Origin: Methyloprofundus sedimenti
GTDB taxonomy: Bacteria; Pseudomonadota; Gammaproteobacteria; Methylococcales; Methylomonadaceae
Direction: 5' to 3'
Assembly (NCBI RefSeq): GCF_002072955.1
Contig: NZ_LPUF01000001.1
Span: forward strand, 1,324,896-1,388,895
DNA: 64,000 bases
Part shown: piece after piece, positions 20,713-64,000 of the stretch
Position numbering within the stretch: position 1 is the first letter of the stretch
Layout: each line of letters opens with the position of its first letter
Translations under genes and position numbers: made by a program
The notes under the pieces: model-generated
The model's database searches: none
The model's input: only the letters and a program-made list of their open reading frames with translations
Told to the model about the DNA's origin: nothing

Positions 20713-21301
20713 CTGATTTTACTAATCCTGAACAAGCAGCTAAAAATATAAACTATATCGTAAATACATTAACAAACTATTCACTGTTTGAAAATCAGTT
20801 CTGAATAGTCTGTTTAAATAATCGGTAGATACTATAATTTTCCGCAATTTTAATTTAATTTCCTATAAGCGGCTACCAACTTACCCAATATTGATATTCT
20901 CTGAAATTGTACATAAACCACAATATCAATCTAGTGGATCATCATAAAAAAATAATAGAGAGATAGATAGAAATGATTCAACAAACACTGACTTAACTCA
21001 AAGACCTACGACTATCAGCTATAGTCAACGCATTCGTACAACAGTCAGATTTCTGTCGAGAAGTATATGAGCTGGAGGATAAATTTATAATTCCTGAATT
21101 ATTTCCTCCATGAGGAAATCATCCGTGCTACCGGATGAATCCAAGGGTATGGGTAAAGAGCTACCCTGACAATGTAACAAAGAAGGCCTTCGCTTCTGGA
21201 GAGTCAATCGTGAAAAATATTGTATCGTAATAACAACAACCTGGGTAAGTACTAGAGAAACGTTGGACTTTAAGCTTCAGGAATTGCGAAAAATTAGAAC
21301 T
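20713..21301. other. intergenic with a possible IstB scrap
   Basis: Apart from a small IstB-like fragment at 20973-21080, no gene is visible. The region has a TGAGGAAATC and a TTTCCTCCATGAGGAAA inverted repeat near 21101-21117. Confidence 0.4.
20973..21080 (+). pseudogene. possible IS21 helper (IstB) N-terminal remnant
   Basis: From ATG 20973 the frame reads MIQQTLT, a stop, then LKDLRLSAIVNAFVQQ. This matches the start of IstB-type ATPases (TLxxLxxLRLxxMxxAF). Nothing further of istB or istA is seen. The match is short, so this is tentative. Confidence 0.35.
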
Positions 21302-44993: not shown

Positions 44994-46289
44994 TTAGAAG
45001 ATGATGCTGCCTTGTAGCCAGAACTTGTTGGTATCTTTAGTTAATGCCGGGTCATATGCCACGTTGCCATTTACATCGGCTGCATCATAAAAAGCATATT
45101 TGGCGAGTAGTTGATAATGTTTGCCAAATTTTTTGGTGATTAAGAAATCATATTCATTACCATAGTTGATACTGTTAGTGACACTCTGGAAATTATGATA
45201 AACAAACGCCATTTTGATGCCCAGAGGTTCGGCACCCAATGTTGTATTAATATCACGTACACCATCTTTAGGCGTGACCAGGAACTTATCTGCCCAGCCC
45301 TGGAATTTATGATTGGTACCAAAAGGCGTCTGGAAAGCACTGATACCATTGGCGCCTAGCTCTTCTACAGCGCCTTTGAGGGTAACCCCCATAAAGCTGG
45401 CTCCTCCCATAATACTGTAACGCCCCAAAGTAAAGCTATTCGGGTTATTGGCTAAATTAGTCTGGAAACTGTATTCAGCCCGGTAATGCAGTTTTATATC
45501 TTTGGTAATTTTGGGTGAGCCAGTTACACTTAGGCCATATGACTGAGCTGATCGGGCAGCTTGTCCCTTATCATAATCTGAAATCCAAAAACCATAACCA
45601 GTCACACTGGCAATGTCTTTAAATTTATAGTTAGCGTTAGCAAACGGGAATTGAACTTTATCTTTTTGAGACCAGATATTTAGTACCTGACCAATATAGC
45701 CAGTTTTCAAGGTCAAATTGTCTATAGATTTATTGGTGACGAAAACTGAGTCATAGGTTTGCTCCATTTGACGCCAACCAACATTACCGATGAAACGTGA
45801 GTCGTCAATAATGATTCGCTGTCTACCACCAATAATTGCTGTATCTGGAATACCTTTATAGCTTACCCATAACTGATTTAATTCACTTGCCTGAGGATCA
45901 GCAACAACTTCACGGTTCGGATCAAAGCTAGGACTTGCAAGGGGGGCAAAGTAATCTTTTTGTAAGGCAAGGTCGCCTTCAAATTCAGCAAAAGCTTGAA
46001 AACTTTTGAATGCAGGCGTCAAATAACCAAGGCGTAAACGTATTGTATTGGCATACGCTGTCTCCCGGCCATTGTCGGCAACATCGGCCAATTCAAAACG
46101 GTAGCGTAAATCAACTTTAAACTGGCCGTATTTTGCATCATCCTGATTAAGTTTTAAGGCACTTTCGACAGATTTATCGAAATCATAAGCAACAGCAGGT
46201 TGTATATCAAGGGCTGCCAGGATGACAGAGGACAAAGCTGTTTGAATTAAACGCTTAGGTTTCAGGGTATTGTTTAGTTGTGCAGGCAT
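44994..46289 (-). CDS. alginate-export-type outer-membrane porin
   Basis: 431 residues with a signal peptide ending near PAVA. DLRYRFELADVADNGRETAYANTIRLRLGYLTP and GGRQRIIIDDSRFIGNVGWRQMEQTYDSV (read in part) are characteristic of the alginate_exp barrel family; the protein ends in IIF. AGGAGA precedes the ATG. It begins 27 bases after the nitrate ATPase gene, so it probably provides outer-membrane entry for nitrate in this operon. Confidence 0.85.
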   Translation of the reverse strand: MPAQLNNTLKPKRLIQTALSSVILAALDIQPAVAYDFDKSVESALKLNQDDAKYGQFKVDLRYRFELADVADNGRETAYANTIRLRLGYLTPAFKSFQAFAEFEGDLALQKDYFAPLASPSFDPNREVVADPQASELNQLWVSYKGIPDTAIIGGRQRIIIDDSRFIGNVGWRQMEQTYDSVFVTNKSIDNLTLKTGYIGQVLNIWSQKDKVQFPFANANYKFKDIASVTGYGFWISDYDKGQAARSAQSYGLSVTGSPKITKDIKLHYRAEYSFQTNLANNPNSFTLGRYSIMGGASFMGVTLKGAVEELGANGISAFQTPFGTNHKFQGWADKFLVTPKDGVRDINTTLGAEPLGIKMAFVYHNFQSVTNSINYGNEYDFLITKKFGKHYQLLAKYAFYDAADVNGNVAYDPALTKDTNKFWLQGSIIF

Positions 46290-46316: not shown

Positions 46317-48059
46317 TCAATGTGCTTTATCGCATTCAGCCAGGAAGGTTAATAAACTTTCTCGGTATTTATAATAATCTGGATGCGCTAATAAATTTTT
46401 TCGTGTTCTGGGTCTAGGTAAATCAATTTCTTCGATTTTACCGACTTTGGCATTAGGTCCATTACTCATCATGACCACGCGGTCGGCTAATAAGATAGCT
46501 TCATCGACATCATGAGTGACCATAATCGCAGTCACCCGGGTGCGTTGCCACACTTCCATTAACACTTCCTGTAATTCCCAGCGCGTTAATGAGTCAAGCA
46601 TGCCAAAGGGTTCATCGAGTAATAATAATTTTGGTGACAGGGCAAAGGCACGTGCAATCCCGACGCGTTGACGCATGCCATTAGATAGTTCGCCAGCTTT
46701 TTTAAATAAAGAATCACCTAATCCCACACGGGTAATATAGTATTCGACGATATCATTGCGTTCTGATTTGGTCGCATGGGGATAGACTTTGTCTACACCT
46801 AATAAAACGTTTTCAAAAGCCGTCAGCCAGGGGAACAAACTGGGGGCTTGAAAAACTACACCACGGTCAGGACCTGCGCCAGAGACTTCTTTATTGTCCA
46901 GAATAATCCCGCCCTCGGAGACCTCATTTAAACCTGCTGTCATAGAGAGTACAGTCGATTTTCCACAACCTGAATGGCCAATAATAGAAATAAACTCGCC
47001 TTTTTTTATGCTGAGTTCAAAACCATCGACTACTTTAACGGTGCTGTTGCCATCGGGGGTAGGGTATATTTTCGATAACTGGGAAAATTCCAGGTATTTA
47101 GGCTTGCCGATATCATCTTTTGTAGGTTTTAGTGCTGAATGATCATGCTGCCAGTCATTACTGGTATTGGGACGGACATTAGGCAGAATAATTTTATCAC
47201 CACCTTCCTGACTGGATTTTTCAATCCCGATATCCATCAAGTATTTAGTAATTTCAGCACGTAGACGTTTAAATTCTTCGTTGTGATTCAGTGCCGTTCT
47301 GTCTCTAGGACGTGGAAGATTAATATGGAAATCAGGCCCCAGTGTTGCGTCAGGTCCAGGGTTTAACGGTATAACGCGATCCGCCATATAAATAGCTTCA
47401 TCGACATCATTAGTTATTAAAACAACAGTTTTCTTTTCTTTTTCCCAGATACTGATGATTTCATCTTGCAAATTACCTCGGGTTAAGGCATCCAGGGCAC
47501 TGAGAGGTTCATCTAATAATAAAATATCAGGGTTTGCCGCCAGGGCGCGTGCCACGTTAACTCGTTGACGCATACCACCTGACAGTTCAGCAGGCTTTTT
47601 ATCCATGGCATGGCCTAAGCTGACCATTTCTATGTATTTTTTGCTATGCGTGGCACGTTTTTCAGATGACCAATGTTTAAAAATTTCGTCGACAGCCAGA
47701 GCGACATTTTCAAAAACAGTCAGCCAGGGCATGAGTGAGTAATTTTGAAAAACCACACCTCTGTCAGGGCCTGGAGAGGTGATAGGCTCTCCATGTTTTA
47801 ATAAATCTCCCGTGCTCGGTTGAATGAGTCCGGCAATGGCAGAAATCAATGTGGTTTTGCCGCTACCGGAAAAACCAACAATGGCGATAAATTCTCCGTC
47901 TCTAACATCTAAATTAATGTTTTTTAAGATAGATGTTTTTGCTTTGCCTTCACCATAGGATTTACAAACATTTTTTAATTCTAATAAGGGTTTGACTGCA
48001 TCATTTGATGCAATTAGTTTTGCGTTGTCGCGCATAATATCTTTTTCTAGTGCTGACAT
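46317..48059 (-). CDS. nitrate ABC transporter ATPase, two fused NBDs (NrtC/NrtD-like)
   Basis: 580 residues with two ABC domains. Domain 1 has GFSGSGKTT, LSGGMRQRV and ILLLDEPLSALD; domain 2 has GHSGCGKST, LSNGMRQRV and LLLLDEPFGMLD. The H-loop of domain 1 reads ITNDVDEA, replacing the usual histidine by asparagine, while domain 2 has VTHDVDEA. So only one ATP site is probably fully catalytic. It pairs with nrtB, 12 bases upstream. Cyanobacterial NrtC and NrtD are separate chains, so this is a fusion with no NrtA-like tail. Confidence 0.9.
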   Translation of the reverse strand: MSALEKDIMRDNAKLIASNDAVKPLLELKNVCKSYGEGKAKTSILKNINLDVRDGEFIAIVGFSGSGKTTLISAIAGLIQPSTGDLLKHGEPITSPGPDRGVVFQNYSLMPWLTVFENVALAVDEIFKHWSSEKRATHSKKYIEMVSLGHAMDKKPAELSGGMRQRVNVARALAANPDILLLDEPLSALDALTRGNLQDEIISIWEKEKKTVVLITNDVDEAIYMADRVIPLNPGPDATLGPDFHINLPRPRDRTALNHNEEFKRLRAEITKYLMDIGIEKSSQEGGDKIILPNVRPNTSNDWQHDHSALKPTKDDIGKPKYLEFSQLSKIYPTPDGNSTVKVVDGFELSIKKGEFISIIGHSGCGKSTVLSMTAGLNEVSEGGIILDNKEVSGAGPDRGVVFQAPSLFPWLTAFENVLLGVDKVYPHATKSERNDIVEYYITRVGLGDSLFKKAGELSNGMRQRVGIARAFALSPKLLLLDEPFGMLDSLTRWELQEVLMEVWQRTRVTAIMVTHDVDEAILLADRVVMMSNGPNAKVGKIEEIDLPRPRTRKNLLAHPDYYKYRESLLTFLAECDKAH

Positions 48060-48071
48060 ATTTGACTCCGA

Positions 48072-49091
48072 TTAGAGATTGTTACCATCAAAAGAAAAGA
48101 TATTTTGTAAAGACTGCATAATGCGGTCCAGAATAAAACCGATAATACCGATGGTGAACACAGCCACCATAATTCTACCCAGGGAATGCGAGCTGCCATT
48201 CTGAAATTCATCCCAGACGAATTTACCTAAGCCCGGGTTTTGCGCCAGCATTTCGGCTGCAATTAAAACCATCCAGCCCACACCTAATGACAAGCGCATA
48301 CCAGTGAAAATATAGGGCAGGGCAGAAGGCAAAATGATTTTTCTGATTTGTGTGTACCAGTTAAGGCGTAACACTTTACCAACGTTAACCAGATCCTTAT
48401 CAATGGAAGCAACACCGACCGCAGTATTAATTAAAGTTGGCCATAAAGAGCATAAGGTCACAGTGATTGCCGAGGTTAAAAATGATTTTTCAAACCAGGA
48501 ATCATCGGTGGTGACGTAAAGCGCACTGACAATCAAGGTAACAATAGGCAGCCAGGCTAGCGGGGAAACCGGTTTAAAAATCTGTATTAAAGGGTTAATA
48601 GCAGTATTAAACAGTGGACTCATGCCGCAAATAATACCGACGGGTACAGCAATAATAGTGGCAATAAAAAAACCGGCAAATACAGTATATAAGCTGGTAA
48701 TAATCTGATCCCAGTAAGTTGCTTTTCCTGTATAAGGACGCTTTTTTATTTCAGCGTCAGGGTTTTTGGCTAACTTCTTTGCATTGCGGGCTTCCTGGCG
48801 CTGGTGAAAAGCGACTTCTTTTAGGCGTTCTTCCTTATGATCAGCTACTAAACCGCCTACTTCATGCCAAACAGCGGAGGGGCCAGGGATTGTTCCTAAG
48901 CTGGTATGAATTTGCGTTGCGGAGGCACTCCACAATCCGAGGAATATGATAAAGGCTATAATGGGCACGCCCATGATTAACCAGAGTTGCTTGACTTGCT
49001 GTGTCGGGTTTTCGCCGGCAGCTATTTTAACGAAAGGTACAAACCACGTAAGTCCCGTTATATTAAAGAATTTGATCAGTTGATTGGTCAT
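48072..49091 (-). CDS. nrtB: nitrate ABC transporter permease
   Basis: About 339 residues from ATG 49091, preferred over ATG 49115 because an AGG lies nine bases before it. Six membrane segments; the BPD motif region reads SALPYIFTGMRLSLGVGWMVLIAAE. FKPVSPLAWLPI is the NrtB/SsuC family signature. An unusual charged insert (residues about 80-120, rich in Lys and Glu) separates the first two helices. It works with NrtA and the fused ATPase. Confidence 0.92.
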   Translation of the reverse strand: MTNQLIKFFNITGLTWFVPFVKIAAGENPTQQVKQLWLIMGVPIIAFIIFLGLWSASATQIHTSLGTIPGPSAVWHEVGGLVADHKEERLKEVAFHQRQEARNAKKLAKNPDAEIKKRPYTGKATYWDQIITSLYTVFAGFFIATIIAVPVGIICGMSPLFNTAINPLIQIFKPVSPLAWLPIVTLIVSALYVTTDDSWFEKSFLTSAITVTLCSLWPTLINTAVGVASIDKDLVNVGKVLRLNWYTQIRKIILPSALPYIFTGMRLSLGVGWMVLIAAEMLAQNPGLGKFVWDEFQNGSSHSLGRIMVAVFTIGIIGFILDRIMQSLQNIFSFDGNNL

Positions 49092-49240
49092 TGTTGGATA
49101 CCTGTTTTGCGGCATTGCATAAATAATCGATTGTCTTTATATTTTTTTAACAAGAGAGATACATCCTTGTATCAAAAAACTTCCTTATTAAAAGTAGCTT
49201 ACAACTATCCTACATAGGGGGAAGGAAGGCTTGGCTCAAG

Positions 49241-50641
49241 TTAGTCTATGATTTTTCCACCCACAACTTTTTGATTACCTTTTAGACCAATCGAGAATTT
49301 GGATAAATAGGCATTAGGGTGTGAGCCATCGTAGATAATATTATCGATAAAGTCTTTTTGTGGTGGTTTGAAGCCTGATTCGTTATCAAGCGGGAAATCA
49401 ATTGCATTGGCTTTGCCCTCAGCAATCAATTCTTTAGCTGCTTTCATATAGATGTCTGGACGGTAAACTTTTTTCGCAATTTCCATAAACCAGGCATCTG
49501 ATTTAGGTTCGTTGATTTGTCCCCAGCGACGCATTTGTGTCAAATACCAGATGGCGTCGCTGTAATACGGGTAAGTCGCTTTGTTTCTAAAGAATGTATT
49601 AAAATCAGGCATCGGGCGTTTGTCGCCTTTTTCATACTCAAAAGTACCGGTCATGCTATTCGCGATAACATCGTAGTCAGCGCCTACATATTTACTTTCA
49701 GATAAGATCTTGACTGCTTCCGGACGGTTTTTGTTATTGTCCGCATCGAGCCAGATTGCCGCACGAATAAGCGCTTTAATAACAGCAAGGTGAGTATTTG
49801 GATTTTTATCTGCCCAGGCTTTACTGACACCAAAAACTTTTTCAGGATTATCTTTCCAGATTTCATAATCGGTAATAACGGGAACACCGATCCCCTTAAA
49901 TACAGCTTGTTGATTCCATGGCTCACCTACACAATATCCATAAATAGTATCTGCTTCCATCGTTGCAGGCATTTGTGGTGGAGGCGTAACTGACAACAGG
50001 ACATCTGCATCAATTTTTCCGCTGGTATCTTGTGGTGGTGCATAATAACCAGGGTTAAGACCGCCAGCCGCTAGCCAGTAGCGTAATTCGTAATTATGTG
50101 TAGATACAGGGAATACCATGCCCATATTAAACGGCTTACCTTCACTTTTATATTTTTCGACGACTGGCTTTAATGAACTGGCTTTAATAGGATGGATCGG
50201 TTTACTAGCTTCCATAGGGACATGAGCTTTCATTTGAGCCCAGATGTTATTGGAAACGGTAATTGCATTGCCGTTTAAATCCATGCTGAAAGCCGTGATA
50301 ATATCGGCTTTAGTTCCAAAACCAATGGTCGCTCCCAGCGGCTGACCAGCGAGCATGTGTGCACCATCAAGTTCGCCGTTAATAACGCGGTCTAATAATA
50401 CTTTCCAGTTGGCTTGTGCTTCTACCTGGACAAATAAGCCTTCATCTTCGAAGTAACCCTTTTCGTAGGCAATGGCTAAAGGTGCCATATCGGTTAATTT
50501 AATAAAACCAAATTTAAGGTCTTCTTTTTCAAGGTTTTCAACTGCATTAGCAGCAGAACAAATTGTCAGAGTTGTTGCTGTCAAAGCAACTGATAGTGCT
50601 GAGGTTAATTTTCTTAAAGTAAACATAGTCGTTTCTTTCAT
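49241..50641 (-). CDS. nrtA: nitrate ABC transporter substrate-binding protein
   Basis: About 466 residues from ATG 50641, chosen by GAGGA upstream. The signal peptide ([21 protein letters not shown]) shows it is periplasmic, so it is the transporter's binding protein and not a cytoplasmic NasS sensor. [36 protein letters not shown] and [16 protein letters not shown] are NrtA/CmpA family features. The leader carries ANTAR hairpins, an intrinsic terminator and a sigma-54-like promoter. Confidence 0.93.
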
Positions 50642-50673: not shown

Positions 50674-50739
50674 AAAAAAAAAGCGTCTACAAACTGAATG
50701 CATAACTGGGGGGGGAAATGCATTCCGATTGAAGACGCC
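50674..50739 (-). terminator. leader terminator of nrtA
   Basis: On the minus strand GCGTCT and AGACGC enclose a second stem, AATGCAT with ATGCATT, and nine T follow (50682-50674). It lies between promoter and start codon, about 35 bases before the nrtA ATG, so it must be bypassed for expression. Its upstream arm shares GTCT with hairpin P2. Confidence 0.85.
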
Positions 50740-50766
50740 TTTGTCTGGTTGGCTCAGCTTTGAGCC
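50733..50766 (-). promoter_or_regulatory. ANTAR-type tandem hairpins in the nrtA leader
   Basis: P1 (50751-50766) is GGCTC-AAAGCT-GAGCC. P2 (50733-50746) is AGAC-AAAGGC-GTCT. Both have six-base loops with A at position 1 and G at position 4, the ANTAR consensus, separated by four bases. P2 uses GTCT, part of the terminator's left arm, so forming P2 should prevent the terminator. This matches NasR/NasT/EutV antitermination. The likely binder is the protein at 61651-62232. Confidence 0.8.
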
Positions 50767-50806
50767 CTTATTTAAACCCCGCCGTTGGAGTTATATGTTT
50801 ATGTCT

Positions 50807-50825
50807 ATGCATTTGGCATGCCAAA
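50807..50825 (-). promoter_or_regulatory. sigma-54-like promoter of nrtA
   Basis: On the minus strand TTGGCATGCCAAATGCA has GG-N10-GC spacing. A start about 12 bases downstream would leave about 30 bases before P1. TTTGGCATGCCAAA is itself palindromic, so it could also be a binding site. Confidence 0.6.
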
Positions 50826-50992: not shown

Positions 50993-51916
50993 TTAAAAAA
51001 GAAAAGTGACGACAGCTGTGAGTGCACCTTTATCAATCACAGGCACTGCAAGCAAAGAGCTAATGGCTGCCGGGTCGGATGTTGCACCATTGATATTGCT
51101 TTTACCAATAACGGGAACCCCGGTAAGCCAGGCTCGACCAACTGAACCTTCGCCTTTAGCGATGGTTTTACTTTCAAAGATACTGGCCAAGGCGTTATTT
51201 TCTTTTCCGTAAGCCGTCTGGCAGAGTAATTTTTTATGTTCTTTATCTGGTAACCATATTTGCATACGCTTGGCTATGGGGGTGGATTTGGCTGATAAGA
51301 AAGTCATGATGTAGACTTGCTCCTGATGGATGGCAACGGGTATGCCGATGCCTTTGGTGATTTCTGCCTTTTTGGCATCCCTGCTTCTAATAAACACAGG
51401 GCTGTTGCCTATATCTTCCATGATAATAGGGCACTCTTTTTCCCAGACAATGCCGGGTAAGCCACTGCCTTTTAGCAATGTGGTTTTACGGGAAATTTTT
51501 TCAAAATAGTCTAAGGTTCCGTAGTACCCATCTATGACATTGAGCTCATTATTGTGCTCAGGAGTGTTGGCCCAGACTTCGATTGCGCCCATATGATTTT
51601 CATCCCCTCCGCATAGAAACACAATGACAGCCATTAAAAACTCGCCTGCCATGACTGGCATACCTATTGCGCAGGTTAGTCCCGCTTTTTGCGCGGCCTC
51701 TGTTCGTTCATAATATGGGCTTTCTAATTCGGTAATAATAATAGGATGTCCTGCTGCCCAGACATTGCCAGGGAGGCCCTGTTGATAGGCAAATTGTTTG
51801 CGCGCACTGATTTCGCCAAATTCCTTGAACTTTCCATAAATACCATCGGCTAATTCAAGATGAGTGCGTTGTTTATTAGGAATCCAGATTTCAGTAATTT
51901 TAATAAATGTTTTCAT
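50993..51916 (-). CDS. protein of three tandem GAF-like domains
   Basis: About 307 residues from ATG 51916; no strong ribosome site. Three repeats of about 100 residues share a pattern: an IW start, a motif LPGNVWAAGHPIII / LPGIVWEKECPIIM / SVGRAWLTGVPVIG, and a closing strand FLMAVIVFLCGG / YIMTFLSA / LTAVVTFLF. There is no effector domain. GAF domains bind small ligands or partners. It lies upstream of nrtA on the same strand, separated by the nrtA promoter, so a role in sensing nitrogen or redox state is possible but unproven. Confidence 0.7.
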   Translation of the reverse strand: MKTFIKITEIWIPNKQRTHLELADGIYGKFKEFGEISARKQFAYQQGLPGNVWAAGHPIIITELESPYYERTEAAQKAGLTCAIGMPVMAGEFLMAVIVFLCGGDENHMGAIEVWANTPEHNNELNVIDGYYGTLDYFEKISRKTTLLKGSGLPGIVWEKECPIIMEDIGNSPVFIRSRDAKKAEITKGIGIPVAIHQEQVYIMTFLSAKSTPIAKRMQIWLPDKEHKKLLCQTAYGKENNALASIFESKTIAKGEGSVGRAWLTGVPVIGKSNINGATSDPAAISSLLAVPVIDKGALTAVVTFLF

Positions 51917-52674
51917 CAAGTTAATTTTGTTTATGGTTCTATGCTCGATATACAACTATAGAAAGCATTAATAGTCATTTCCAGTCTTGCTGACTTTATA
52001 CAGAATATAGGCTTTGTTACTCAATGGAATTCTAGCTAAGTGGGCTGCTATATTCTAGTCTGATGGCTGCATATTATTTCCTGATTACCCATAACCCTCA
52101 GCCATATTCAAGCTCGCTCGTCATTCCTGCATGTTGTTAGCAGGAATCTATAGGCCTAAGCAATAGATTCCCGATAAAAGACTTCAGGAATGACGAAGTC
52201 GGTTTTTTATAAAAAACTGATATTAAGGCTTTTTTCATAATGGTTGAGCCTTGTACGTAATCAAGTATTATTTTATAACGCTTATTTGAGGCATCAAGAT
52301 GCTGTTATATGCATACATTATACCGGTGATAAAACAATACAAAAATAATTGGCATTTGTCGTGCCAAGCTGCTTGAAATCTTTTATTTATTGAGTAATTT
52401 ATCTATATTTCAATAGGATATGTATACCATTCTGGTTTTGTGCAATAAATAATATTTACCATGTTGAGTTACGCGCATTGAGATGGTGCGTATGTGTTGG
52501 CATATGCGCTATTATGGTGATTACGGTGTGTAGTAGGCGAATCCTCTGTCGCTAAGTGATTGATTATCCATTTGCCCGCGCTTAGGATATTTTACTTTTA
52601 GGGTCAGGCTAGATTTTAAAGTGGTATAAAACCTGCTTGATAATATATGACTATTTATATAAGGAAAAAATAAT
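51917..52674. other. intergenic, about 750 bases
   Basis: No gene. It contains a palindromic repeat at 52119-52195 and a TTGGCATTTGTCGTGCCAA dyad at 52349-52367 that also fits GG-N10-GC, but that lies about 310 bases before the next gene and may be chance. Confidence 0.5.
52119..52195. repeat. REP-like palindromic repeat
   Basis: CGTCATTCCTG and CAGGAATGACG close the ends, with GCAGGAATCTAT and ATAGATTCCCG inside. It resembles the widespread GTCATTCCnG repeat family of Proteobacteria. No transposase nearby. Confidence 0.6.
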
Positions 52675-53652
52675 ATGTCCAAAATGAGTCATATCAGTGT
52701 TATTGAAAAGTATGATGAGCACCATAATGAAATTCATAGCATGCTATCTTCTATTTTGACCTGTTTCTCCGATGAAAAAGTGTTTGAACTAAATCAAAAA
52801 GACTTAAAAGAGATGCTTAATTCTTTATGTAGCTATTATCCTTTTATTAGCCTGTTGTACCTACTGGATGAATCTGGCAAGCAAATAAGTATGAATGTTC
52901 CGGGGATGAATTTTAAAAATCAGCCCAAAATCGGGCGTGGTTTAGATAGAAGTAAACGTCCTTATTATTTATTAGCAATGAAGTCTGATTCGGTTGCTGT
53001 CACAGAGCCATATTTATCCAGTATCAAAAGGGAGCTATGCCTTTCAACCAGTATTAAAGTGTGTGATAACAGTGGACAGCTTCTCGGTTTTATCGTCCTG
53101 GATATTGATTTGTCGGCAATCTTGTCCTTTTTAACCGGGGATAGTAAGCGTAAACATTTTGAGCCCTATTTTAAAGCAATGTACTCGTTGATTGTTCTCG
53201 GCCTATTTGCTGTTTCACTGATTTTATTGTATGCGGCACTGAGGGAATGTATGCAAGTGCTACATATTTTAATATATCAACCCGGTGAGATTGTTATGCC
53301 ATTTGGTGTAGTAATTTATTTAACCCTGGCACTGGCCATTTTTGATTTAGCCAAGACCACTCTGGAAGAAGAGGTACTCTTATATAAGGATATATTGCGC
53401 CATAGTTCAACTCGGCGAACGATTACCCGTTTTGTTGCAGCGATTATTATTGCAGTCTCAATTGAAGCATTATTAATGATTTTTAAATCTGCCTTACATG
53501 ATGGCGAGCATATGCTGGATGCAGTCTGGGTAATGTTGGCATCGGCCATGCTACTACTGGCGCTGGGAGTTTATATCTATCTCGGTAGTAAGGCGGAAGT
53601 CATGTTGGTTAAGGGGCGCAATAAAGTAAATACAGGCGACAGAAGTGGATAA
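52675..53652 (+). CDS. membrane sensor protein with PDC/Cache-like domain
   Basis: 325 residues. An N-terminal domain (LLYLLDESGKQIS, GLDRSKRPYYLLAMKSDSVAVTEPYLSSIKRELCLSTS) has the pattern of a PDC ligand-binding domain, and is followed by four or five membrane helices and a basic tail. There is no kinase or output domain, and no obvious signal peptide before the PDC domain, so the domain may be cytoplasmic. The next gene, 70 bases on, encodes an EAL protein, so the two may form one signalling unit. Confidence 0.7.
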   Translation: MSKMSHISVIEKYDEHHNEIHSMLSSILTCFSDEKVFELNQKDLKEMLNSLCSYYPFISLLYLLDESGKQISMNVPGMNFKNQPKIGRGLDRSKRPYYLLAMKSDSVAVTEPYLSSIKRELCLSTSIKVCDNSGQLLGFIVLDIDLSAILSFLTGDSKRKHFEPYFKAMYSLIVLGLFAVSLILLYAALRECMQVLHILIYQPGEIVMPFGVVIYLTLALAIFDLAKTTLEEEVLLYKDILRHSSTRRTITRFVAAIIIAVSIEALLMIFKSALHDGEHMLDAVWVMLASAMLLLALGVYIYLGSKAEVMLVKGRNKVNTGDRSG

Positions 53653-53721
53653 TTGATTTTTATTAGCAGAATAAAGATACAAAATAATAATTAATCTATA
53701 CACAGGATTTTACACAGACAA

Positions 53722-54882
53722 ATGCAAACAGTTTTTCCATATTTTCAACCTATCATCAGCGTCGCAAGCGGGAGAATTGTCGGTTATGAAGTAATAGCAA
53801 GACACATTGATAATCAGCCGCCGCTTGTTTCTGAAGCAGCAATTGCAGTACAAAGCACAGCTTCAGAGGAGCAGGCGAGGGAGCTTGACCGACAGGTACG
53901 TTGGCTGGCGTTGCAAAAATTCTCAGCATTGGAGGATAAAACCAGTTACTTAACACTTAATATATCGGCGACGAACATTGATTGTCTAAATAATGTCAAA
54001 CAATTGCCTACGATTGAGATGCTGGAGAAATTAAAGATAGATAGAAGCCGGGTGATTATAGAGATTACTGATGGCGCGGCTGAAATAGCTAAATTGAAAG
54101 AGGCAGTTAAATTATATCGCCGACAGGGCTTGAGAGTAGCAGTGGATCATTACGGTTCGGGCTATTCACAGCTGGATCGAGTCATTGCGCTTAATCCTGA
54201 TATTATCAAAATTGATATGCGTTTATTCAAGCAGGCGGCAAAAGGAGGGGCTGCTAGTGAGGCCGTGCAACTGCTGACTCGCTTTGGTAAGCGTCAGGGC
54301 TATCAAATTATTTGCGAAGGCGTCGAGAGCATGCATGAATTTTTCTTTGGTCTGAGTTGCGGAGCGCAATATATGCAAGGCCGTTTGTTCTCAGCTGCAG
54401 AGCTGGAGTTTAAATCTCCCGATTATTATCAACAACATATCTCATCCTTGAGAAATAAGTTCTTGATAAGAAATCTGGCGGATGAACAGAAAAAACTTGA
54501 TAGATTCAATAAAGTTGAATGTTTAGCCTACAAATTAAAAGAGGCTTTGCAGGATGATTTTAATTTGAATGAATTATCCAGCTGGGGTTTTGAGGATCTT
54601 GGCGTGCTTAAGTTTTATTTATGCAATTGCAGTGGTGAGCAAATTTCCCCAGACTTTAACTTCAAGAACAAGCACTGGTACAGCGATGCAAAAAAAATAG
54701 GCCACAATTGGTCGTGGCGGTCCTATTGCTATGAAACAATTGCTCTGAATAATTGTGGCATAAATAATCAAGTAGTGATTTCTGACAGTTACCGGGATTA
54801 TGAAAGTGGCGTTTTGTGCCAGACTTTATCTTTGTATCTGGACAGTGAGAGAATGTTAATGATCGATATGAAATTGAGGTAA
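53722..54882 (+). CDS. degenerate EAL-domain protein
   Basis: 386 residues. EAL-domain features run through residues 1-235, but catalytic positions are altered: EVIAR replaces EALLR and VDHYGSGYSQL replaces DDFGTGYSSL, changing the second metal aspartate to histidine. EIT and EGVES remain. It is therefore more likely to bind cyclic di-GMP than hydrolyse it. The C-terminal 150 residues are not recognised; they contain LGVLKFYLCNC and a WSWRSYCYETI segment. The PDC-type gene precedes it. Confidence 0.75.
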   Translation: MQTVFPYFQPIISVASGRIVGYEVIARHIDNQPPLVSEAAIAVQSTASEEQARELDRQVRWLALQKFSALEDKTSYLTLNISATNIDCLNNVKQLPTIEMLEKLKIDRSRVIIEITDGAAEIAKLKEAVKLYRRQGLRVAVDHYGSGYSQLDRVIALNPDIIKIDMRLFKQAAKGGAASEAVQLLTRFGKRQGYQIICEGVESMHEFFFGLSCGAQYMQGRLFSAAELEFKSPDYYQQHISSLRNKFLIRNLADEQKKLDRFNKVECLAYKLKEALQDDFNLNELSSWGFEDLGVLKFYLCNCSGEQISPDFNFKNKHWYSDAKKIGHNWSWRSYCYETIALNNCGINNQVVISDSYRDYESGVLCQTLSLYLDSERMLMIDMKLR

Positions 54883-54929
54883 ATTACATCGACCCCTTAT
54901 TAGTAAATACAATACCCGTCGGAACATAT

Positions 54930-55322
54930 ATGCAAATAAGTATTACCACGCCGGCATTACTGTTTCCAGCTATTTCGGTCTTATTTCTAGCTTATGCAAA
55001 CCGCTATTTAGCTATTTCGAAAAGAACCCGAGAGTTGCATGGCTTATATAATAAAACACAAAGTTTTTATGCAAAGAAACAGGTTGAAAGCTTAAGAAAG
55101 CGCATTCGCCTGATAATTATTATGCAGCTGTTGGCAGTGATGGGTATTATTAGTTGTGTGCTCACCATGGGCCTGATTTTTTTCGGTTTACAAAAAATCG
55201 CCAACTACTGTTTTTTAACGGGGATGATCTTGATTGTTTTTTCTTTATTGGTGTCCATGTGGGAATTATTGATTTCAACCCAGGCATTGAATATTGAACT
55301 ACAGAAAATTGAAGGAGAATGA
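54930..55322 (+). CDS. DUF2721-family membrane protein
   Basis: 130 residues with three membrane helices. TTPALLFPAISVLFLAYANRYLAI and MQLLAVMGIISCVLTMGLIFF match DUF2721, whose function is unknown. It is 47 bases after the EAL gene and immediately before the glucosylglycerate phosphatase gene (TTG start two bases on). Confidence 0.75.
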   Translation: MQISITTPALLFPAISVLFLAYANRYLAISKRTRELHGLYNKTQSFYAKKQVESLRKRIRLIIIMQLLAVMGIISCVLTMGLIFFGLQKIANYCFLTGMILIVFSLLVSMWELLISTQALNIELQKIEGE

Positions 55323-61650: not shown

Positions 61651-62232
61651 TTAGAGTTCAAGTAATTCAGACATTGCAATAACATTTTTTGCCATTTCTG
61701 CTAATGCGATATTTCTATCCATCGCTAATTTGCGAATTGTGTGGTATGCCTCGTCTTCTGAAAATCCGCGTGTTTTAATTAAAATTCCCTTGGCGCGATC
61801 AACCAGTTTTCGCTCTTCCAGTTTATCCCTGGTTTTTTCCAGTTCAGCTTTCAGTTGTTGCTGTTCTTTAAAGCGTGCTGCAGCAATGTCAATAATGTTT
61901 TTGATACGCTTGCTTTCCAATCCGTTAACGATGTAGGCGCTGATTCCGGCTTGTATTACTTTATTTACCGACTTGCTATCAGAGTCTTCTGAAAAAAGAA
62001 TAGTGGGGCGAGCATAAACCAGATTCAGTTCTTTAATAAACTGGATCATCTTATCAGTGACTTTTTCACTGTTGAATACTATGACTTCAGGCATTATTTC
62101 ATTAGAAATTTTATTGATATCAAGTGATTCAGAAAACAGGGTAATGGCCTGAAAATCTAGTTTATTTAGCATCGTTTCAAGTTCTTTACTTTTAGAAAGA
62201 TACTCAATAACTAAAATTTTGTAAGGGCTCAT
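61651..62232 (-). CDS. ANTAR-domain RNA-binding regulator (NasT-like)
   Basis: 193 residues. Residues 1-125 form a receiver-like domain, but the phosphorylation site is lost: the strand reads PEVIVFNSEKV with no aspartate. A coiled coil (FKEQQQLKAELEKTRDKLEER) leads to the C-terminal ANTAR domain (KLVDRAKGILIKTRGFSEDEAYHTIRKLA). ANTAR proteins bind paired hexaloop hairpins and prevent termination; the nrtA leader has such hairpins. NasT is normally held by the sensor NasS, which is not seen here. A sigma-54-like element lies upstream. Confidence 0.85.
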   Translation of the reverse strand: MSPYKILVIEYLSKSKELETMLNKLDFQAITLFSESLDINKISNEIMPEVIVFNSEKVTDKMIQFIKELNLVYARPTILFSEDSDSKSVNKVIQAGISAYIVNGLESKRIKNIIDIAAARFKEQQQLKAELEKTRDKLEERKLVDRAKGILIKTRGFSEDEAYHTIRKLAMDRNIALAEMAKNVIAMSELLEL

Positions 62233-62629: not shown

Positions 62630-62646
62630 TGGCATGTGTTGTGCTA
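62630..62646 (+). promoter_or_regulatory. sigma-54-like promoter of narK
   Basis: TGGCATGTGTTGTGCT has GG-N10-GC spacing and lies about 36 bases before the ATG. The leader is too short for ANTAR hairpins. Confidence 0.6.
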
Positions 62647-62681
62647 TTGCTATAGTCAATATTACTATTTTGGATTTGATT

Positions 62682-64000
62682 ATGAGCGCACAAGCATTAA
62701 ACTTTTTTTCATTTTCGGGCAGGATGAAGATTCTGCATACGACCTGGATTGCATTTTTTATCTCATTTGTCGTCTGGTTTAGTCATGCGCCCTTAATGCT
62801 GGTGATTGCAGATTCATTAGGTATGAGCAAAGCTGAAATCAAGACTATCCTGATTTTAAATGTCGCTCTGACTATTCCTGCAAGAATAATTATTGGGATT
62901 TTAGTTGATAAATTTGGTCCTAAGCGGACGTATTCTATTTTATTGGCTTTGGGTAGTTTGCCTACCTTTATGTTTGCTTTTGCAAATAGCTTTGAGCAAC
63001 TCGCATTAGCACGATTTTTATCGGGTTTTGTAGGCGCAGGGTTTGTGATTGGCATACGCATGGTAGGCGAGTGGTTCCCTGCTAAACAAGTTGGCATTGC
63101 CGAAGGTATCTATGGTGGTTGGGGGAACTTTGGTTCATCTGCAGCAGCGATGACCTTACCCACTTTGGCACTGGTATTTGGTGGACCTGATGGCTGGCGT
63201 TATGCGATTGCCACTACCGGTTTGATTGCTTTGGTTTATTCGCTTATTTATTTTTTCAGTGTTAGCGACACACCGAAAGGATCTACCTATTTTAAACCGA
63301 AAAAAGCAGGTGCAATGGAAGTCACCAGTATAAGGGACTTATTTTTCTATATTCTAATGACCATTCCCTTATATGCAACGCTGACTTTATTAACCTGGAA
63401 ATTATCGCCTGCAGGTGTCAGTTTATTAAGCGATTTTTCTGCCTTATTAATTTATATCGGTATCTGGCTATTATTCATTTATAACGTGTATAAAATTGTT
63501 CATGTGAATGAAGATCACCTTGCCCAACCCATAGACGACATTCATAAATATAAGTTTAAGCAAGTAGCTATTTTAGATTTAGCTTATTTGATTACCTTCG
63601 GTTCGGAATTGGCGATTGTCTCAATGCTACCGATATTCTTTTATGAAACATTTCATGAATCACAAGGGATTACACTGGTGCAAGCGGGTCTTTCTGCATC
63701 GGGATTTGCATTTATGAATTTAATTGCACGTCCTGGCGGCGGCTGGATCAGTGATAAGTTTGGGCGTAAATTATCCTTATCAATTTTTATTATTGGTTTG
63801 ACGTTCGGCTATTATGTCATGTCATTAATTACCCCCGACTGGCCTATATATGCGGTTATTATTTTAACCATGTGTTGTTCATTCTTTGTTCAGGCAGGTG
63901 AGGGTGCTGTGTTTGCCATGGTTCCGTTAATTAAACGTCGTATGACGGGACAGATAGCCGGTATGGTTGGTGCTTATGGTAATGTGGGGGCCGTATTATT
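62682..64000 (+). CDS. NarK/NasA-type nitrate/nitrite transporter (partial, cut by window end)
   Basis: The frame is open to the last base; about 440 residues are visible. Membrane helices begin with [60 protein letters not shown] and [16 protein letters not shown] match the NNP family, as does [15 protein letters not shown] in the second half and GAYGNVGAV at the end. It imports nitrate or exports nitrite. It is divergent from the ANTAR gene. Confidence 0.92.

Follow-up and report, generated by a model that had tools for sequence, protein, structure and literature searches.

How is the nitrate transporter operon of Methyloprofundus sedimenti controlled, and by what route would nitrate reach the regulator? 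The question is raised by the leader upstream of nrtA, at positions 50674-50824 on the minus strand of a 64-kb stretch of DNA from this species (hereafter the window). A preliminary description, made from the letters of the window alone, read this leader as an ANTAR antitermination element with two hexaloop hairpins and an overlapping intrinsic terminator, and named the product of 61651-62232 as the protein that reads it. Dual-hexaloop antitermination is established for EutV (PMC8934654, PMC3369931). In the current structural model (PMC8934654), an ANTAR dimer touches a single hexaloop at any one time, P1 recruits the protein, and P2 prevents termination; why both hexaloops are needed is still asked there.

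Methods

The genome of M. sedimenti comprises 4.29 Mb on six contigs. A search with the ANTAR protein supplied 55 related loci, titled Methylobacter, Methylomonas, Methylovulum, Crenothrix, Methylococcaceae, or Methylococcales; from these and the M. sedimenti genome, the 33 loci holding an nrtA start (that of M. sedimenti included) gave the set of nrtA leaders, which were located by protein similarity and not by RNA. The covariation alignment (A1) comprised 31 distinct leaders, and L041, whose leader is identical to that of L050, was left out. The automatic leader scan took too short a terminator arm in L029 and an inner stem in L046, and misplaced P0 in L019. A shuffle control was performed on the 76 nt upstream of P2, using 1650 dinucleotide shuffles drawn from the 33 leaders.

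Two models were searched. R1, a three-hairpin model, was run against 151 sampled Methylococcales genomes at E <= 0.01, among which f1 denotes the window's own family. R2 is an outside dual model of six leaders from other gammaproteobacterial orders, with one hairpin and P2; four of its 30 loci were without the P2 pattern and were left out (three in family f7, one in f4), and the 26 scannable loci comprise 24 from f4 and one each from f6 and f7. EutV residue numbering was carried over through a structure-sequence alignment. Two proteins (L198 in G092 and L196 in G051) were treated as second, distant ANTAR proteins and excluded as NasT.

Leader anatomy and folding

The minus-strand gene order is triple-GAF gene, leader, nrtA, nrtB, nrtCD, and porin (Table 1). 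Elsewhere in the window, at 21119-21252 on the plus strand, a group II intron D1-D4-7 match was recorded (46.6 bits).

Table 1. Features of the nrt block and of the regulatory genes in the window
Feature	Position	Strand	Details
Alginate-export-type outer-membrane porin, final gene of block	44994..46289	-	PF13372 1.8e-8
nrtCD-like double ATPase	46317..48059	-	TIGR01184 2e-180
nrtB-like permease	48072..49115	-	TIGR01183 2.7e-46, under its cut-off
nrtA, nitrate ABC transporter substrate-binding protein	49241..50641	-	PF13379 4e-99; ATG at 50641
T run	50674..50682	-	nine T, directly after terminator
Intrinsic terminator stem-loop	50683..50738	-	left arm overlaps P2 loop and right arm
P2 hairpin, antiterminator	50733..50746	-	AGAC[AAAGGC]GTCT, A1/G4 hexaloop
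P1 hairpin	50751..50766	-	GGCTC[AAAGCT]GAGCC, A1/G4 hexaloop
P0 hairpin	50775..50792	-	AACTCC[AACGGC]GGGGTT, A1/G4 hexaloop; 5' end at about +6
Sigma54-type -24/-12 element	50807..50824	-	TTGGCATGCCAAATGCAT; predicted +1 at 50797
Stand-alone protein, three GAF-like repeats, candidate signal input	50993..51916	-	PF13185
NasT-like ANTAR protein, degenerate receiver (N54 for Asp), predicted leader reader	61651..62232	-	PF03861 2.5e-20
MFS gene, nitrate-transporter-like, divergent from nasT	62634..64000	+	PF07690; cut by window end (L002:3530-5056)

The loops AAAGCT and AAAGGC of P1 and P2, both A1/G4 and four bases apart (linker AACC), and the overlap of the terminator's left arm with P2 had been noticed previously, and both are confirmed in the sequence. 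P1 and P2 therefore stand, but not the count of two hairpins, for a third A1/G4 hexaloop hairpin, P0, had been overlooked; P0 and P2 are separated by 28 nt with P1 inside. The terminator arms, GCGTCT (50738-50733) and AGACGC (50688-50683), pair with each other, and P2 and the terminator are mutually exclusive by sequence.

The leader as a whole has an MFE of -41.6 kcal/mol (z -4.57; 0/200 shuffles equally good) and the terminator alone of -22.5 kcal/mol (z -7.5), while P1, P0, and P2 alone reach -8.2, -5.6, and -2.3 kcal/mol, respectively. Since P2 is much weaker than the terminator, it needs help to win. When the segment up to P2 (50727-50793) is folded, the MFE structure contains all three hairpins, P1 with a 4-nt loop because an A-U pair within its hexaloop can close. 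Two further A1/G4 hexaloop hairpins arose in none of the 1650 shuffles, and a single one in 2.4%. The exact GACAANGGCGTC occurs once in the window, and the nine sites with up to two mismatches are no more than chance. An Rfam scan at gathering thresholds found no family at the leader, and a general terminator scan did not list the leader terminator, whose loop is presumably longer than that scan permits.

Promoter element

All 33 nrtA leaders, that of M. sedimenti included, contain TGGCA-N7-NGC, a sigma54-type element that the preliminary description had passed over, and in 32 of them the P0 stem begins between +3 and +8, counted from the predicted start. TTGGCA-N7-TGC matches five times in the window against 1.06 expected. 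Two overlapping elements of this form, one per strand, lie at 52349-52367 between the GAF and Cache genes. A sigma70 promoter was rejected, the scan having given chance-level sites only, both on the plus strand.

Conservation and covariation among relatives

The P2 pattern GACAAAGGCGTC, with no more than one substitution, is present in 33/33 leaders, a degree of conservation that answers the doubt raised earlier over a hairpin of four pairs; a near-invariant strand is what would be expected where two alternative pairings hold it. The terminator has a stem of at least seven pairs in 32 of the 33. P0 is an A1/G4 hexaloop in 30, including L047 with only three unbroken pairs, the exceptions being L008 (5-nt loop), L052, and L019 (both with G at position 1). 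Four leaders have a deviating P1: L023 and L027 have 5-nt loops, L008 has G1, and the stem of L047 is broken. A mechanical count over the 70 nt before P2 gave exactly two A1/G4 hexaloop hairpins in 27 leaders, one in four, and none in two, and the P1-P2 linker measures 3-5 nt among the relatives.

Across the 31 distinct leaders, 93.1% of cells pair and eight pairs change on both sides: four in P0, three in P1, and the outermost pair of P2, which is paired in just 17 of the 31. The covariation score is 0.299; shuffles gave 0.185 (0/500 as high), and slid structures did not exceed 0.094. For further pair types, 71 of 500 shuffles reached the observed count. The three inner P2 pairs do not vary in this set, so that P2 is without covariation support of its own. 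The covariation check on P1 and P2 that had been set beforehand, run here on relatives, leaves the ANTAR reading standing: it favors P1, with P0 covarying likewise, and is silent on P2. A larger set of 73 distinct model-aligned leaders gives a like result, to be taken with caution as that alignment was fitted to the structure. In these 73, A1 and G4 are both present in 54 (P0), 59 (P1), and 70 (P2), and G4 in 63, 68, and 71, respectively; P0 and P1 most often depart by a G in place of A1, and both are highly variable at loop positions 3, 5, and 6.

Comparison with two-hexaloop leaders

A covariance search with an ANTAR hairpin model had been suggested at the outset, and R2, whose leaders come from other orders, does find the nrtA leader, its sole match in the M. 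sedimenti genome at E <= 0.05 (E 2.4e-7). The same model matched 20/20 family f4 genomes searched, with best E-values of 9.6e-9 to 0.004. Upstream of P2 in the 26 R2 loci, one A1/G4 hexaloop was counted in 21, none in five, and two in none. A promoter element is present in 18 of the 26, with the predicted start 33-46 nt before P2 in 17 and 16 nt before it in L202; the corresponding distance in the 33 f1-type leaders is 48-59 nt.

R2 aligns the window leader through P0 and P2, leaving P1 as an insertion, and does likewise in five of nine loci (L108, L163, L095, L092, and L128), whereas it picks P1 and P2 in L113 and L109 and makes another kind of match in L160 and L239. P1, originally taken as the partner of P2, looks extra relative to the dual leaders, and most simply it would be a hairpin added between an older P0/P2 pair, as these alignments suggest. 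In the f7 leaders L160, L162, and L163, the middle hairpin loops are ATTTAA, CTTGAA, and GTTTC, none of them an A1/G4 hexaloop, and the P0 loops of L160 and L162 depart as well (AGTATT and AGTAT). These f7 middle hairpins may be a spacer stage or decayed sites. The match in L239 (G143 C3:151179-151262) is weak (E 6.4e-5) and has a longer first hairpin loop; G143 has an ANTAR domain and is without a strong PF13379 match.

Induction of eutP falls strongly when its two hairpins are set 3 or 14 nt apart (PMC3369931). With P0 and P2 28 nt apart and P1 and P2 4 nt apart, neither pair in the window alone has eutP geometry, and P1 should therefore have a part to play, whether the protein binds it or it serves as a folded spacer.

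Distribution and regulon

R1 matched 58 of the 151 genomes, 55 in f1 and three in f7, and its single match in M. sedimenti is at nrtA (E 3.3e-11). An ANTAR domain is present in 57 f1 genomes, among them all 55 leader genomes; G098 and G143 have the domain without a leader. A leader was found in none of the 20 f1 genomes for which no ANTAR is listed, three of which (G124, G141, and G147) match PF13379 strongly.

The R1 matches number 74 and precede nrtA (58, by BLAST), nirB-like (7), chemotaxis-receptor (4), EAL (2), and MFS (1) genes, with two unresolved; gene names other than nrtA rest on Pfam scans of homologues or one member and on likeness of protein starts. Ahead of these matches, the looser promoter form GGCA-N8-GC was found in 55/58 for nrtA, 7/7 for nirB, 4/4 for chemotaxis, 2/2 for EAL, 1/1 for MFS, and 2/2 of the unresolved, and the stricter TGGCA-N7-TGC in 54, 1, 4, 2, 0, and 2, respectively. 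ANTAR elements before nitrate/nitrite transporters, a nitrite reductase, and a chemotaxis gene had been predicted by Ramesh 2012 (PMC3369931). The plus-strand Cache-domain, EAL+YkuI_C, and DUF2721 genes at 52675-55322 of the window resemble genes of the nas cluster in a Methylobacter-type genome (L165), where the EAL and chemotaxis-receptor genes each have their own three-hexaloop leader; the M. sedimenti genome, unlike L165, has the nrtA leader only.

A class-wide R1 search of 369 genomes returned 16 genomes at E <= 0.05, about the chance number for that cut-off, of which two belong to f1, one (G006) to the same order, and 13 to other orders. Outside the order, six dual-hexaloop leaders, recognized by eye from the motif and the start of the protein, lie before nrtA- or nasA-like genes (L170, L171, L174, L175, L176, and L182). 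L177, whose downstream gene is nrtA-like, and L179, which precedes a porin-like gene, also from other orders, seemingly have three A1/G4 hexaloops by eye. Matches L172, L173, L178, L180, and L183, and L181 in G006, look like chance and were rejected.

The ANTAR protein

The reader named in the preliminary description holds up as a prediction: the 61651-62232 product is the sole ANTAR protein of the genome, and seven of its predicted RNA-contact residues are conserved. EutV residues R142, K143, K149, E160, Y164, R168, and M172 are reported at the RNA in PMC8934654, and the counterparts of all seven are identical in 55/55 family proteins (the window's and 54 relatives). The counterpart of EutV K147 is Arg in 52 of the 55, and N173, R175, and R177, which make RNA backbone or sugar contacts, are not kept, the residues here being D, N/K, and T/A.

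The ANTAR domain covers residues 132-185 of 193. The N-terminal part matches no receiver family at threshold and aligns with the EutV receiver, and the nearest solved structures by sequence are EutV, Rv1626, NasR, and AmiR. A Pfam search at E <= 0.001 found no NIT sensor domain in this protein. The phospho-acceptor position, 54, is Asn in 53/55 family proteins, the window's among them, and Gln in 2/55; in NasT beside a NasS-like gene it is Asp in 6/6, three of these from one genus. The window protein is 35-39% identical to NasS-linked NasT.

Absence of NasS and candidate signal inputs

The preliminary description did not see that NasS, the cytoplasmic NrtA-like nitrate sensor, was missing: a PF13379 search of the M. 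sedimenti genome did not find it, returning NrtA alone above the cut-off plus one match below. A single PF13379 match (E <= 1e-25), of NrtA/NasS type, was likewise found in 49 of the 55 f1 leader genomes. In G051, a second PF13379 gene adjoins an ANTAR gene and was read as NasS-NasT, and in G040, G074, G128, G129, and G136 a second, weaker match is remote from any ANTAR match. Five family f4 loci inspected (L184, L186, L209, L212, and L227) have a NasS-like gene beside nasT, named by its position and 42-44% identical to NrtA. In the leader family, nasT is accompanied not by NasS but by a triple-GAF protein or a neighboring MFS gene.

The triple-GAF gene lies near nasT and nrtA in relatives and closely follows nasT in many related loci. 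The protein was found in 30 of the 151 genomes, all 30 of which carry the leader, and it has no match at E <= 1e-20 in 25 of the 55 leader genomes; it therefore cannot be the general sensor. Mean column identity is 76% over 25 proteins, in an alignment that left out 16 of 40 relatives (two named rows with an internal stop, the others unchecked). Its AF2 model has a pLDDT of 86 and a GAF fold. A fold search with this model scored many GAF proteins alike, with NreA at rank 43 and NitrOFF1, which we take to be an NreA-based sensor, at rank 32, and a comparison of the sequence with solved structures gave only matches at E 0.06. NreA-type nitrate sensing was not adopted, as many GAF proteins score similarly, and to say that the triple-GAF protein may bind nitrate is a guess from its modeled fold.

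Among the 25 leader genomes without the triple-GAF protein, 13 were examined, and in 12 of these nasT directly follows a nitrate-transporter-like MFS gene, overlapping it or separated by a few bases; the thirteenth, G051, has NasS-NasT instead. The loci of GAF-less relatives with this MFS-then-nasT arrangement, often overlapping, are L011, L015, and L058 (by eye) and L187-L195, L199, L200, and L168. In the window genome the two genes are divergent, unlike in the GAF-less relatives, and the true start of the MFS gene is possibly slightly downstream of 62634. The signal input thus appears not to be NasS, and the triple-GAF protein is the best candidate for it in the window genome.

Discussion

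We consider it highly probable that the nrtA leader works as an ANTAR antitermination switch responding to nitrate, predicted to carry three recognition hairpins. The observed basis of this reading is the anatomy of the leader, its conservation, the covariation of P0 and P1, the co-occurrence of leader and ANTAR gene, the RNA-contact residues, and the absence of NasS; from these we infer that the protein would bind the leader, that nitrate would be the signal, and that the third hairpin may be a second loading or relay site. Several observations weigh against it: P2 has just 3-4 pairs, of which the inner ones are invariant; A1/G4 is incomplete in P0 and P1 over the 73 aligned leaders; three EutV contacts are not kept; G098 and G143 have an ANTAR domain and no leader; and P1-P2 linkers of 3-5 nt occur in relatives, when shortening to 3 nt greatly reduced eutP induction. 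Judged by sequence, this would be ANTAR antitermination in a new variant that has three hexaloops and is NasS-less, family f4 having two hexaloops and apparently never three.

As we envisage the mechanism, sigma54 RNA polymerase would start at about 50797 under nitrogen limitation, and P0, P1, and P2 would emerge one after another. With no active ANTAR protein, the terminator would take the right arm of the weak P2 and the transcript would end at the T run. Were the NasT-like product of 61651-62232 active, its dimers would bind P0 and P1, pass to or cooperate at P2, and hold P2 closed, with the result that nrtABCD would be transcribed.

That the three hairpins act as a relay is hypothetical, and the main rival to it has P0 and P2 working together as a dual hexaloop of the kind present in f4 and the other orders, with P1 merely a spacer helix that keeps both close. 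The R2 alignments that skip P1 speak for this, as do f4, where one hairpin and no middle hairpin is seen before P2, and the three f7 leaders whose middle hairpin lacks an A1/G4 hexaloop; two of those three depart from A1/G4 in P0 too, however, and are weak witnesses. We nevertheless think a spacer unlikely, for P1 retains its G4, and in most leaders its A1 as well, while its other loop positions vary, which is unlike a mere spacer, and in L113 and L109 it is P1 that R2 takes. Still less probable is an ANTAR site made of P1 and P2 alone, with P0 a 5'-end hairpin shielding the message from decay. The 5'-most end of a transcript is the usual place for a protective hairpin, and P0 lies there in nearly all leaders, but P0 keeps A1/G4 amid much variation at loop positions 3, 5, and 6, and dual leaders elsewhere have a P0-type hairpin near the promoter. 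Attenuation by some other signal unrelated to ANTAR, such as a leader peptide, a riboswitch, or a plain terminator, would be permitted by the terminator alone and by the lack of an Rfam family at gathering score; it is scarcely credible in view of three A1/G4 hexaloops, ANTAR genes in 55/55 leader genomes, and the independent R2 match.

There is a substantial chance, somewhat short of even, that the ANTAR protein is controlled not by the triple-GAF protein but by NrtA, by the MFS transporter, or by ligand binding to the degenerate receiver, as the GAF-less leader genomes and their MFS-linked nasT would suggest; on the other side stand the confinement of the GAF protein to leader genomes (30/30), its place beside nasT in many relatives, and its conservation. 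More tentatively, and with the odds in our view against it, Methylomonadaceae-type methanotrophs might have lost NasS and the receiver Asp and, together with these losses, acquired a third hexaloop, with the ANTAR protein now gated by a triple-GAF nitrate sensor or an MFS transceptor and the extra hairpin affording earlier loading or cooperativity. A natural three-hexaloop family beside two-hexaloop relatives of the same order makes the hairpin requirement testable, and a NasT-type regulator without NasS implies that nitrate must enter by another route, here in methane-consuming bacteria.

Among the literature matches listed, neither a triple-hexaloop ANTAR leader nor a study of ANTAR proteins in methanotrophs, on nitrate control or otherwise, was found. 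The ANTAR regulons of Ramesh 2012 are defined as dual hairpin, and no third hairpin was seen in the text covered (PMC3369931).

Comparison with known systems

The NasS-NasT systems of Paracoccus denitrificans, Bradyrhizobium, and Azotobacter (PMC3795266, PMC5424462, PMC6759348) have in common with the present locus a REC-like and ANTAR protein, nitrate assimilation genes, leader hairpins, and a terminator, and in P. denitrificans NasT binds the nasA leader (PMC3795266). They differ in that NasS is absent here and the receiver Asp is replaced by Asn, and the P. denitrificans nas leader has two hairpins (HI and HII) against three hexaloops. The NasR-controlled nasF leader of Klebsiella shares antitermination of nitrate assimilation genes via a dual A1/G4 element (PMC3369931, PMC7496416), but NasR has its own NIT sensor domain (PMC5424462), of which Pfam shows none in the 61651-62232 protein. 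The eutP leader of Enterococcus faecalis and its reader EutV share the hexaloop pair, the overlap of P2 with the terminator, and most RNA-contact residues (PMC8934654, PMC3369931); EutV works with a phospho-acceptor Asp54 and two hexaloops, whereas the M. sedimenti locus has Asn at position 54 and three.
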